Below are positions 6,586 to 56,867 of a DNA stretch of 64,000 bases, one piece after another (positions within the stretch are counted from its first letter, which is position 1; the number at the start of each line of letters is the position of its first letter). Source of the DNA: a virus. The position numbers were made by a program, and so were the translations under genes. The stretch is taken from positions 1 to 64,000 of the IMG/VR virus record IMGVR_UViG_3300005663_000003. One strand, 5' to 3'. The notes below the pieces were generated by a model, which saw only the letters and a program-made list of their open reading frames with translations, made no database searches and had not been told where the DNA came from.

Positions 6586-6831
6586 ATGTCGGGAACCGTA
6601 GCAAAGGATGCAGGAGTGGGTGGCATGATCATCCTAGAGCCTGGTCACGCGGTCAGGTTCAAAGCCCACGACTACGTTCAGTCCGAAGGCTCGCGCGAGA
6701 TTCTCACGGTGGACTGTATCCACCACGATGCCCTAGGCGTCACGCGAGGAGCACTCAACACGACGCCAGTAGACATCTCGGCGGGGTCCAGGCTTGAGCG
6801 CGTCGCCTCGGGAGTAAACGATGGGCCATGA
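6586..6831 (+). CDS. Hypothetical protein, 81 aa
   Basis: ATG at 6586 is preceded by GGGAGTGAGCGAACG, resembling the GTGAAGCGA initiation context. The product is beta-rich (MIILEPGHAVRFKAHDYVQ) with repeated short strands. Upstream in-frame codons fall inside the hairpin and are not favoured. It overlaps the portal start by 11 bases. A small virion or neck-related role is possible but unproven. Confidence 0.55.
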   Translation: MSGTVAKDAGVGGMIILEPGHAVRFKAHDYVQSEGSREILTVDCIHHDALGVTRGALNTTPVDISAGSRLERVASGVNDGP

Positions 6832-8626
6832 GTTCGACGCTTTCCACAGTTTCCACGCGCGGCTGCTTGAGGTAGCCGACGGGGACATCGAGGAAGCGAA
6901 GCTCCTGCTCCGAGCCAAGCGTCGAGCGGGCAACGATGCGCGCGGGCTCAACCTCGACAACCTCACCATCAACCACTTCCGCCACTCGCTCACCTTCGGC
7001 AGGTCCGGCAACATCTTCCGGGATGCTCAGCTCCTCAACGATCAGGAGCTACAGATGAATGCGCGGCGCCTCGCCTTCGGAGGCCCGCCCGCCCGCGTGC
7101 GCGAGGAGCACTCCCAGTTCTGCCTCCTCATGTTCCAGGGCTACCAGATTCGATTCCTCGACCGGCACCCCGGCGAGACCCCCGAGGCGTTCGCGAATCG
7201 TCCTCGGAAGACGGCGGTGAACATCACGCGCGTCATCATCAACGCGCTCTCCAAGCTCTACGCCAAGCGACCAGCGCGCAAGCTCGTAGAGTCGACGAGC
7301 GAGCAGGTCAAGCTCGCGTTGGTTGGCAATCAGGAAGCGGGGGTCGAGGGGATTTGGAGCGACGCCTACGACCTTGAGCTGCTGGAGGCTGATCGCTACA
7401 CGCGCCTCGAAGGGACGACCTCGGTGCGCCCCTTCTTCGACCGCGATCATCCCGGGAACATCAAGCTGGTTGTGTTCCATTCCCACCAGCTCAGGATCAT
7501 CCCGAACCCTGCGAAGCCGTGGAAGCCGCTCGCAGTCATCGAACGGCACAAGCCTTTCGAGTCGGAGGGCGCCGTCATCATCTGGACTGCCAAGAGCTTC
7601 CTCCAGCTCAACAGCGATGGCAGCGTGGACCCGAGCAGCGGTCAACACACCATGGGGCGCATCCCCCACACCTTCTTCCTCGACCGCAAGGCAGCCACCG
7701 GATCCTTCTTCGTCGAGGGCCGGGGCCGTGGGCTCTGCGATGCGAACGCGGTCATCAACGCGAAGCTCACCGACTTGAACGAGGTCTATCAATACCAGGG
7801 CTTCGCCGTTCCTGAAATCGTGAACTGGGACGAGGAGGAAGACCTGACCTTGGGCCCCCGGCGCCCCGTCCACTTCAAAGACATCCAAGGTGACCAGCCG
7901 TTCGGCATCGAGTTCAAGGCGCCCCCGCCCATGCTCAAGGAGCTGCGCGCCGAGGTCAACGCCGACATCGAGCAGCAGTTCCGCGCGAACAACGTCCCTC
8001 CCTCGGCGACCGGCGCCGAGATCAATCGGCGGTCCTTGTCGGGCCGCAGCATCCAAGAGTCGATGCGCCCGCTCCTCGAAGACCTCCAGGAACGCGCCCG
8101 GCTGTTCTCCCCCTTCGACGTCGACCTGGCCGACAACGCCTTGAGCGTTCGGGCCGAGCACGACGACGACTTCAACTATGAGCGCGAGAAGGAGAAGCCC
8201 CGGTATCACATCGACTACCAGGAGCCCGACTTCCCACTGGGCACGGACGACCGGGTGAAGTCCGAGAGCCACGACCTGGCCCACGCGATCCGAACCGAAC
8301 CCGAGATTATGATGGAGCGCGACCCCGACCGCTTCCCCACGATCGAGGACGCGCAGAAGGAGCACCAGGCGAACCTCGCCTATCAGCGTCAGAACCCGCT
8401 GGTGCAAGACGGCAGCGCCACCGAGGTCGAGGGCGAGGACTTCTTGGAGTCGCTGCTCAAGGACCACCCGCTGGCCGAGGGTGACCTGACCTGGGTGCGC
8501 GAGGAGCTGGCCGCGCTCCAGGCGCAGGCCGAGGCGGACGAGACGGGGAGCAGCAAGGCCAAGCCCAAGGCCAACGGCAACGGAGACCTGCTCGGGGAGC
8601 TGGCGCGTGGGAAGGTGAAGGCATGA
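6821..8626 (+). CDS. Portal protein
   Basis: The dodecameric portal forms the packaging and ejection channel at one capsid vertex. The call rests on size (601 aa), position (the first large structural gene after terL) and composition: a charged N-terminus, a beta-rich middle with HTMGRIPHTFFLDRKA (about 286-301), a helical LTDLNEVYQYQGFAVPEIV stretch (about 317-335, clip/stem-like), and a flexible acidic C-terminus ending in Lys/Ala/Gly-rich sequence. ATG at 6821 overlaps the preceding gene. The match is by architecture rather than a catalytic motif. Confidence 0.75.
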   Translation: MGHEFDAFHSFHARLLEVADGDIEEAKLLLRAKRRAGNDARGLNLDNLTINHFRHSLTFGRSGNIFRDAQLLNDQELQMNARRLAFGGPPARVREEHSQFCLLMFQGYQIRFLDRHPGETPEAFANRPRKTAVNITRVIINALSKLYAKRPARKLVESTSEQVKLALVGNQEAGVEGIWSDAYDLELLEADRYTRLEGTTSVRPFFDRDHPGNIKLVVFHSHQLRIIPNPAKPWKPLAVIERHKPFESEGAVIIWTAKSFLQLNSDGSVDPSSGQHTMGRIPHTFFLDRKAATGSFFVEGRGRGLCDANAVINAKLTDLNEVYQYQGFAVPEIVNWDEEEDLTLGPRRPVHFKDIQGDQPFGIEFKAPPPMLKELRAEVNADIEQQFRANNVPPSATGAEINRRSLSGRSIQESMRPLLEDLQERARLFSPFDVDLADNALSVRAEHDDDFNYEREKEKPRYHIDYQEPDFPLGTDDRVKSESHDLAHAIRTEPEIMMERDPDRFPTIEDAQKEHQANLAYQRQNPLVQDGSATEVEGEDFLESLLKDHPLAEGDLTWVREELAALQAQAEADETGSSKAKPKANGNGDLLGELARGKVKA

Positions 8627-8934: not shown

Positions 8935-9023
8935 GTCGCGAGCGCGCCGCGCTCGTGGTCGCGGTGCTGACCGGCATCGCGATCGTCTGCTTCGTGCTCG
9001 ACGTCGTCCGATCCGCCGGGTAG
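8919..9023 (+). CDS. Tiny single-span membrane protein, 34 aa
   Basis: ATG at 8919 opens a 34-residue frame: a charged start (MEARLSRER), then one hydrophobic span of about 20 residues (ALVVAVLTGIAIVCFVLDVV), then a short basic end. Its TAG at 9021-9023 is part of a TAGACT box. Size and topology fit a small membrane peptide, possibly lysis-related, but there is no direct evidence. Confidence 0.45.
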   Translation: MEARLSRERAALVVAVLTGIAIVCFVLDVVRSAG

Positions 9024-9026
9024 ACT
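9021..9026 (+). promoter_or_regulatory. Putative -10 box TAGACT before a structured RNA region
   Basis: TAGACT overlaps the stop of the small membrane gene. It lies at the correct distance to start transcription inside the first of five consecutive hairpins. No -35 consensus is visible. Confidence 0.4.
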
Positions 9027-9029
9027 CTT

Positions 9030-9171
9030 CGACGAAGGCGGGTTCGACTCCCGTTCGTTGGCCGAGAGCCGGTGCAATCCGGGTTCGAGTCCCGGGCGTC
9101 CGCAAGGACGATCATGCCAGCGGGGTAGCTGGCGGCCCGGTAACGCCCAGGGGCTTTCACCCCTGGGCGTT
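9030..9171 (+). ncRNA. Candidate multi-hairpin RNA with two T-loop-like hairpins
   Basis: Five adjacent hairpins can be drawn. CGACGAA (9030-9036) pairs with TTCGTTG (9054-9060) around an inner CGGG/CCCG stem whose loop is TTCGACT. CCGGG/CCCGG (9079-9095) has loop TTCGAGT. CGTCC/GGACG (9097-9110) has a GCAA tetraloop. GCCAGC/GCTGGC lies at 9116-9133. A terminator-like hairpin follows at 9142-9171. The two loops match the tRNA T-loop pattern TTCRANY, yet no full tRNA cloverleaf can be built. It lies just upstream of a tRNA gene. The family is unknown. Confidence 0.5.
9142..9171 (+). terminator. Perfect 12-bp hairpin, probable terminator
   Basis: AACGCCCAGGGG (9142-9153) pairs perfectly with CCCCTGGGCGTT (9160-9171) around CTTTCA. 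There is no T-run beyond the TTG that follows. It separates the upstream structured RNA from the tRNA. Confidence 0.6.
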
Positions 9172-9186
9172 GTCCGTTCCTTGCGG

Positions 9187-9192
9187 TAGACT
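9187..9192 (+). promoter_or_regulatory. Putative promoter -10 box (TAGACT) for the tRNA
   Basis: TAGACT ends 5 bases before the mature 5' end of the tRNA at 9198, so predicted initiation coincides with the first tRNA base. No convincing -35 box is seen. Confidence 0.45.
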
Positions 9193-9197
9193 CTCGC

Positions 9198-9272
9198 AGC
9201 GCGGTAGAGCAGTCCGGTCAGCTTGCCAGGCTCATAACCTGGACGTCACAGGTTCGAATCCTGTTCGCGCTA
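9198..9272 (+). tRNA. tRNA-Met (CAT anticodon)
   Basis: A complete cloverleaf folds by hand. Acceptor AGCGCGG (9198-9204) pairs with TCGCGCT (9265-9271). The D-stem is GAGC/GCTT, the anticodon stem CCAGG/CCTGG with loop CTCATAA (anticodon CAT, 9234-9236 region), and the T-stem ACAGG/CCTGT with loop TTCGAAT. The discriminator is A and CCA is not encoded. The paired A1-T72 and lack of three G-C pairs in the anticodon stem argue against an initiator tRNA, although A11-T24 is initiator-like. A lysidine-modified Ile tRNA cannot be excluded. Confidence 0.9.
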
Positions 9273-9659: not shown

Positions 9660-9729
9660 ACTTTCTGCTTGAGAGCGTCGCACCCGTCGCGCATCATGGG
9701 GTCTCAACCCCAACGCAAAGGTGAAGCGA

Positions 9730-10302
9730 ATGCGTGCTCTGTTTGTAGTGGCGGAAGGTTACAAAGGCGAGAACTCGGGATGTGAATTGGAGACGCACAA
9801 CGGCGTCGCCACCCACACCCAAGACAACCAGGGCCCGCTGGTCCGATTGCAGATCGGATACCGCGACGCGGGCAGCCTGATGCGCTGGCTATGGATGGTG
9901 TTCCCCGACGCGGAGGCCAACGTCATCGGCTGCCGTTGTGCGTGCGGAAAGCTCGCGACCGTCAACCTCCACCTGTTGGGCGACAAGCCGAGCGGCCACT
10001 GGTGCGACGACTGTGTGCCAGAGGACAAGCGCGAGGAGTTCGAGGAGAACAAGGCGCGCGGCGCCCACCCTCACGAGAAGCGCGCGACCGAGGAGGCGGT
10101 GAGATACTACCTCCGGTCGGCCTACGGCTACACGGTCGAGGAGGTCGCCGACGCGATCCGCGAGCACCCCTACACCATCGCGTCGGCGGCGGGCAAGGGC
10201 ATGAGCGTCGAGGAGTGTGCGGTCGACATCAACCGGCGGCGCACGCGCCCGAGCCCCCGCGTCCAGCTCGAAGAAGCCGCAGCCGAGAAAGCGGCCGAGT
10301 GA
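9730..10302 (+). CDS. Hypothetical zinc-binding protein, 190 aa
   Basis: ATG at 9730 is preferred because AAAGGTGAAGCGA lies directly upstream as ribosome site; an in-frame GTG at 9721 is the alternative. The middle holds CRCACGK and a later WCDDC (about residues 60-95), giving a probable zinc site. The C-terminal half has a helical segment (YTVEEVADAIREHPYTIASA) that could be a helix-turn-helix, and an Ala/Glu tail. The family is not recognised. Confidence 0.6.
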   Translation: MRALFVVAEGYKGENSGCELETHNGVATHTQDNQGPLVRLQIGYRDAGSLMRWLWMVFPDAEANVIGCRCACGKLATVNLHLLGDKPSGHWCDDCVPEDKREEFEENKARGAHPHEKRATEEAVRYYLRSAYGYTVEEVADAIREHPYTIASAAGKGMSVEECAVDINRRRTRPSPRVQLEEAAAEKAAE

Positions 10303-56813: not shown

Positions 56814-56867
56814 AACTTTCTGAACTTTCTGTTTGACAGGACGCCCCGGAGTTGTAGACTAGGGGGC
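56814..56867 (+). promoter_or_regulatory. Promoter with tandem AACTTTCTG element (copy 3)
   Basis: AACTTTCTG at 56814-56822 and 56823-56831, TTGACA at 56833-56838, a 16-base spacer, TAGACT at 56855-56860 and ATG at 56868. Confidence 0.9.

Follow-up and report, generated by a model that had tools for sequence, protein, structure and literature searches.

In a soil phage, a gene-free stretch adjoining a tRNA gene proves to be a phage-borne gene for a small noncoding RNA of about 110 bases, conserved and structured. It lies in the window, the 64,000 bases analysed here, which form the first part of IMG/VR virus record IMGVR_UViG_3300005663_000003 (86,671 bases). An earlier sequence-only reading had offered four interpretations: a phage noncoding RNA, a tRNA mimic, a riboswitch-like leader or a decayed tRNA cluster. 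The first two are supported, as the structure is kept by compensatory changes in homologues from unrelated phages; the leader is disfavoured and the decayed cluster rejected. The best overall explanation, to which we give about an even chance, is that a conserved noncoding RNA with its own promoter forms a double elbow and acts in trans as a tRNA-elbow mimic.

A portal-like gene (6821-8626) flanks the gene-poor stretch on one side and a conserved small gene (9733-10302) on the other. The stretch comprises two units, one with a TAGACT box, hairpins and a 12-bp hairpin (9021-9171) and the other with a TAGACT box and tRNA-Met (9187-9272). Its features are as follows.

9021..9026, + strand: -10 box TAGACT of the RNA gene, a putative promoter that would place the RNA start near 9032
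9029..9141, + strand: conserved RNA core, matching covariance model R1 at 77.1 bits (E 1.2e-18) with all pairs standard
9038..9054, + strand: P1, or T-arm 1, 5 bp (one G-U), loop UUCGACU
9055..9067, + strand: conserved linker UCGUUGGCCGAGA, near-invariant in MAFFT alignments, an invariance partly fixed by the search patterns
9060..9063, + strand: 5′ strand of the closing helix, GGCC, partner 9134-9137
9068..9075, + strand: D1 mini-hairpin GC-CGGU-GC, with a D-loop-like GG
9079..9095, + strand: P2, or T-arm 2, 5 bp, loop UUCGAGU, all five pairs with two-sided changes
9097..9110, + strand: P3, acceptor-like hairpin CGUCC-GCAA-GGACG with a GNRA tetraloop and no CCA end
9117..9132, + strand: P4, or D2, D-arm-like hairpin CCAGC-GGGGUA-GCUGG, two-sided changes at all five pairs
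9134..9137, + strand: 3′ strand of the closing helix, GGCC, partner 9060-9063
9142..9171, + strand: perfect 12-bp hairpin, terminator-like, beyond the conserved core
9198..9272, + strand: tRNA-Met (CAU), a separate neighbouring gene found by ARAGORN and Rfam

The sequence-only reading had described the TAGACT box (9021-9026), the two T-arms, the GCAA hairpin (9097-9110), the hairpin at 9117-9132 and the 12-bp hairpin (9142-9171), and we found all of these, with their loops, where it had placed them. It had overlooked the mini-hairpin (9068-9075) and the closing helix (9060-9063/9134-9137). ARAGORN and Rfam find only the tRNA-Met at 9198-9272. The D-arm and anticodon arm of this tRNA are initiator-like, but it has an A1-U72 pair. 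There are three copies of the T-loop core GGTTCRANTCC in the 64 kb (0.31 expected; 0 of 100 shuffles reach three), namely those of T-arm 1, T-arm 2 and the real tRNA-Met. Compared with shuffled sequences, the stretch folds with a z of -4.5, and of -0.8 when the final hairpin is omitted. Since that hairpin contributes most of the z of -4.5, folding energy alone is weak evidence.

When 9025-9175 was compared with phages by sensitive BLAST, a single match extended beyond the T-arm, to Pseudomonas phage Touem01 (39 nt, E 9e-4). The other matches were rejected as homologues, being only T-arm matches to ordinary tRNAs. Touem01 has the same arrangement in an unannotated gap, followed by a terminator, and the motif TCGTTGGCCGAGARCYGG, common to it and the window, led to a third phage. 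Scans of IMG/VR with T-arm and motif patterns yielded 23, 22 and 64 stretches, and the pattern scans gave two real bacterial matches, one in Variovorax soli and one in a Sphingopyxis MAG. Further members came from BLAST with known members as queries: Xylophilus phage Lumi, the P. putida phages Ebordelon and Holyagarpour, and the jumbo phages SA002, SXP01 and D6. In all, the family occurs in more than 60 different phages (about 60 in IMG/VR, two prophages and seven isolated phages), most members being metagenomic contigs. It is spread over unrelated phages whose genomes measure between about 25 kb and more than 300 kb, with one strong copy in each phage; none of the seven isolates has an RNA gene annotated at the element. 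Because the search patterns contained T-arm 1 and most of the linker, the conservation of both is overestimated. The T-arm 1 loop is altered in Ebordelon and the three jumbo-phage members, which were found by BLAST and not by pattern. Among about 1,050 proteobacterial genomes, there was no convincing new copy apart from the two seed genomes. The weak matches in bacterial genomes (26-29 bits) that could be inspected were apparently protein-coding coincidences. The RNA family is found almost exclusively in phages.

In the nearest relatives by portal (L002 and L003, 68% identity), the syntenic slot carries a different structured RNA that does not match the family model, so synteny yielded no homologue. 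That RNA (L002 4040-4235, L003 6947-7142) has a TAGACT box, a fold with a z of -4.6 and a clear terminator; it lacks T-loops and has no Rfam match above threshold. L004 has a long noncoding gap in the same slot. A conserved short leader with (G)CATCATGG lies upstream of the MRALFV gene in the window (9690-9735), L002 (4240-4282) and L004 (7170-7215). Within the family, L098, L100, L109 and L122 share an outer helix AGGUGUGC..GCACACCU and make up a subfamily in which the D1 arm is longer (CUGAAGUUGGUAGACGCAG) and resembles the D-arm of tRNA-Leu; L122 is a 171-kb phage with 20 tRNAs. In a further subfamily, comprising L127, L137-L140, L048, L086, L087, L094 and L096, a conserved 3′ domain that is not in the window follows the GGCC (GUUAA..., a hairpin with loop CGGAAU, and AGGGG), and the RNA reaches about 170-190 nt. 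The Touem01 gap (L019) also holds another cryptic tRNA-like sequence at 1063-1133 (CATAG..GCGGGTTCGAATCCCGTCTATG) and an anticodon-arm-like hairpin at 736-755, neither of which ARAGORN calls.

From 5′ to 3′, family members have a short lead, T-arm 1, UCG(U/C)UGGCCGAG, D1, T-arm 2, P3, P4/D2, GGCC and usually a terminator. The mini-hairpin consensus is YY-NGGU-RR, two covarying pairs closing NGGU. P3 loops in other members are GNRA, UUCG or CUUG, and GG is present in the P4/D2 loop of most members. In members without P4, the sole later hairpin has a UGGU or similar loop and was therefore assigned as D2.

The strongest evidence came from covariation in homologues, the check that the sequence-only reading had named. 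R1, which was built from ten members with the window left out, matched the window over its full length with 0 non-standard pairs, and the next match in the window scored 13 bits. R1 recovered 22 members in a first set and 37 loci in a later set at E < 0.05. In model-based alignments, whose fit to the model structure favours structure, 97.3% of cells were paired among 22 members, with 124 two-sided cells compared to 32±4.5 in shuffles, and 97.0% of pairs were standard among 55 members, with 324 two-sided cells compared to 90±7. When partners were slid by 1-3 columns, pairing fell to 33-54%. A MAFFT alignment of 21 members, made without the model, already contained two-sided changes in P1, D1 and P2. 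Since the effect is large and the P1 and D1 regions are nearly ungapped, an artefact of covariation is very unlikely. Two pairs of P1 change two-sidedly (in 17 and 27 members), as do both pairs of D1 (in 15 and 17 members) and all modelled pairs of P3. The closing helix is nearly invariant as GGCC:GGCC in the IMG/VR members, where GGCC belonged to the search pattern, and is GGUC:GACC in Ebordelon, SA002 and SXP01 and AACC:GGUU in D6. The window has all six covarying helices and the UCG(U/C)UGGCCGAG linker. We dropped a further candidate helix, an acceptor stem pairing 9029-9035 with UCGUUGG, which is perfect in the window but lost in L030.

The order of elements, a T-arm, a closed acceptor-like hairpin and a D-like arm, looks like that of a tRNA elbow opened by a cut and joined up again at its acceptor end, and the RNA appears to carry this unit twice. 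As regards the other features expected of a tRNA, the RNA has no anticodon arm, no 7-nt anticodon loop and no CCA-compatible or amino-acid acceptor end. Canonical T-loops tend to go with GG loops and altered T-loops with altered ones (T1-D1, p 5e-4; T2-D2, p 2e-3; both from small, hand-classified tables of related sequences). In L034 and L045, T-loop 2 is replaced, and the P4 loop is complementary to the replacement (GGC/GCC and GGCA/UGCC). The loop association and this complementarity support, short of proof, contacts between T-loops and GGU loops.

The RNA is probably transcribed from its own promoter. TAGACT also precedes tRNA-Met (9187-9192) and short-leader genes genome-wide (for example, TTGACA-N16-TAGACT at 56855), and the promoter stretch at 8997-9028 is 75% identical to 9163-9194, which precedes tRNA-Met. 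A consensus scan gave no good -35 for the RNA gene. A -10-like box lies immediately before the RNA in many members, with TTGACA and TAATGT in L030 and TTGCAA and TAGAAT in L031. Clear terminators, each a hairpin with a U-run, occupy the position of the 12-bp hairpin in L019, L049, L043, L047, L050 and Lumi; in the window, no U-run follows this hairpin.

The tRNA elbow is a target of the ribosome, RNase P, T-boxes and many proteins, and some viral RNAs mimic it (PMC4810234). In our model, the RNA gene would be transcribed from its own promoter, and the transcript would fold into two tandem, circularly permuted elbow modules (a T-arm, then a D-loop-like GGU hairpin) that are held together by the GGCC:GGCC helix. 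Acting in trans, the RNA would show tRNA-like elbows to host factors that read them, candidates being RNase P, T-arm modifying enzymes, the ribosome and a tRNA-directed defence nuclease. The phage would thereby occupy or divert one elbow reader during infection. We infer that a trans-acting elbow mimic is the simplest reading of function. More tentatively, and at somewhat less than an even chance, we propose a previously undescribed, widespread class of phage RNA whose two permuted elbows serve the phage as a decoy, directed at either a host machine that reads elbows or a defence system that targets tRNA. Few small structured RNAs covary strongly and are spread over unrelated phages, and those that do are usually important. 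The present RNA lacks annotation even in sequenced isolates and escapes tRNA finders, and it appears to copy a tRNA feature read by RNase P, ribosomes and modifying enzymes. The family would make the use of tRNA-elbow mimicry by DNA phages testable.

The conserved single-stranded UCG(U/C)UGGCCGAG suggests a specific partner, beyond what elbow mimicry explains, and the conserved linker probably marks that partner. This segment, the most conserved part by sequence, could instead pair with a host or phage RNA, the hairpins merely stabilising an antisense or guide-like small RNA. However, its GGCC forms one strand of the closing helix, where compensatory changes occur, and antisense function would need neither two T-loops nor two GG loops; we consider this explanation unlikely. 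Another candidate is a packaging-motor RNA, a structural RNA that works with portal and terminase, like the pRNA of phi29, which is similar in size to the window RNA. The window RNA has the portal-like gene on one side and the next genes on the other, and in 7 of 24 phages with a terminase family found (phrog_2, which we take to be the large terminase), the RNA lies 0.5-2.5 kb upstream of terminase on the same strand, where about 0.6 would be expected by position. The corresponding p is 8e-8 for 8 of 24, with relatedness ignored and the eighth terminase recognised by eye only. Two of the terminase matches, G014:C1:25908-27464 and G1076:C1:17019-18515, have 5 and 3 TGA codons in frame, which may reflect recoded stops or frameshifts. 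Yet in most other phages the RNA is 5-50 kb from terminase or on the other strand, the site upstream of terminase is a common boundary at which extra genes insert, and the pRNA has no Rfam match in the window or homologues. A packaging role is possible but not general, and as the explanation of this RNA we find it quite improbable.

We give still less credence to a bacterial Y RNA like YrlA, in which a tRNA-like scaffold would tether the Ro60 ring protein to a nuclease. YrlA likewise has a tRNA-like domain (PMC7790460), and cmscan placed a YrlA match at 9052-9176, but that match is at chance level (13.6 bits against a gathering score of 69), and the YrlA model matched none of 13 homologues even at E 5. 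A TROVE/Ro60 gene was absent from 14 member phages and the Variovorax host genome, whereas a control genome was positive, and the YrlA-like reading is largely refuted. The chance of a cis-acting leader or riboswitch is comparably slim. The window RNA is upstream of a same-strand gene, but across the family the downstream genes are mostly unrelated, lie at varying distance and are sometimes on the opposite strand, and a terminator often intervenes. There is next to no chance of a degenerate tRNA cluster left by deletions. Both T-arms do match T-arms of real phage tRNAs, but decay is incompatible with the same arrangement and compensatory changes in about 60 phages, and this covariation and the R1 score of the window refute it. 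We also abandoned an attP reading, in which the 3′ ends of tRNAs act as integration cores, because the whole element is conserved.

The RNA is neither a tRNA nor a match to any catalogued family. Rfam 15 gave no match above threshold for the window RNA, detecting tRNA-Met only, and in 15 homologue loci it found nothing except neighbouring true tRNAs. tRNA finders made no correct full-length call in homologues, and ARAGORN calls were inconsistent; its only permuted-tmRNA call, in L118, spans 632 nt around the member and looks spurious. Like tRNA (RF00005), the RNA has T-arms with UUCRANU loops, D-loop-like GGU loops and an acceptor-like stem beside the T-arm, but it has two T-arms, a permuted order and an acceptor stem closed by a tetraloop. 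YrlA (RF02553) is also a noncoding RNA with a tRNA-like domain; the new RNA differs in its conserved sequence, in the lack of a model match in homologues and in the lack of a Ro60 gene. Its T-arm GCGGGUUCGAUUCCCGC is identical to that of many tmRNAs (RF00023), but the match covers 17 nt only, and the new RNA lacks a tag frame and an acceptor end. The interdigitated T-loop modules of RNase P, T-boxes and the L1 stalk (PMC4810234) likewise have two T-loops per RNA, whereas the T-loops described here are 7-nt hairpin loops that appear to pair with GGU loops, not with one another. Plant-virus tRNA-like structures and mascRNA are also viral or noncoding elbow mimics; they lie at RNA 3′ ends and serve as substrates of tRNA enzymes, and the new RNA resembles them at the level of the T-arm only. 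The T-loop and D-loop are known building blocks, but Rfam 15 and the open-access literature searched contained no match for the family, its tandem permuted arrangement or its distribution among phages.
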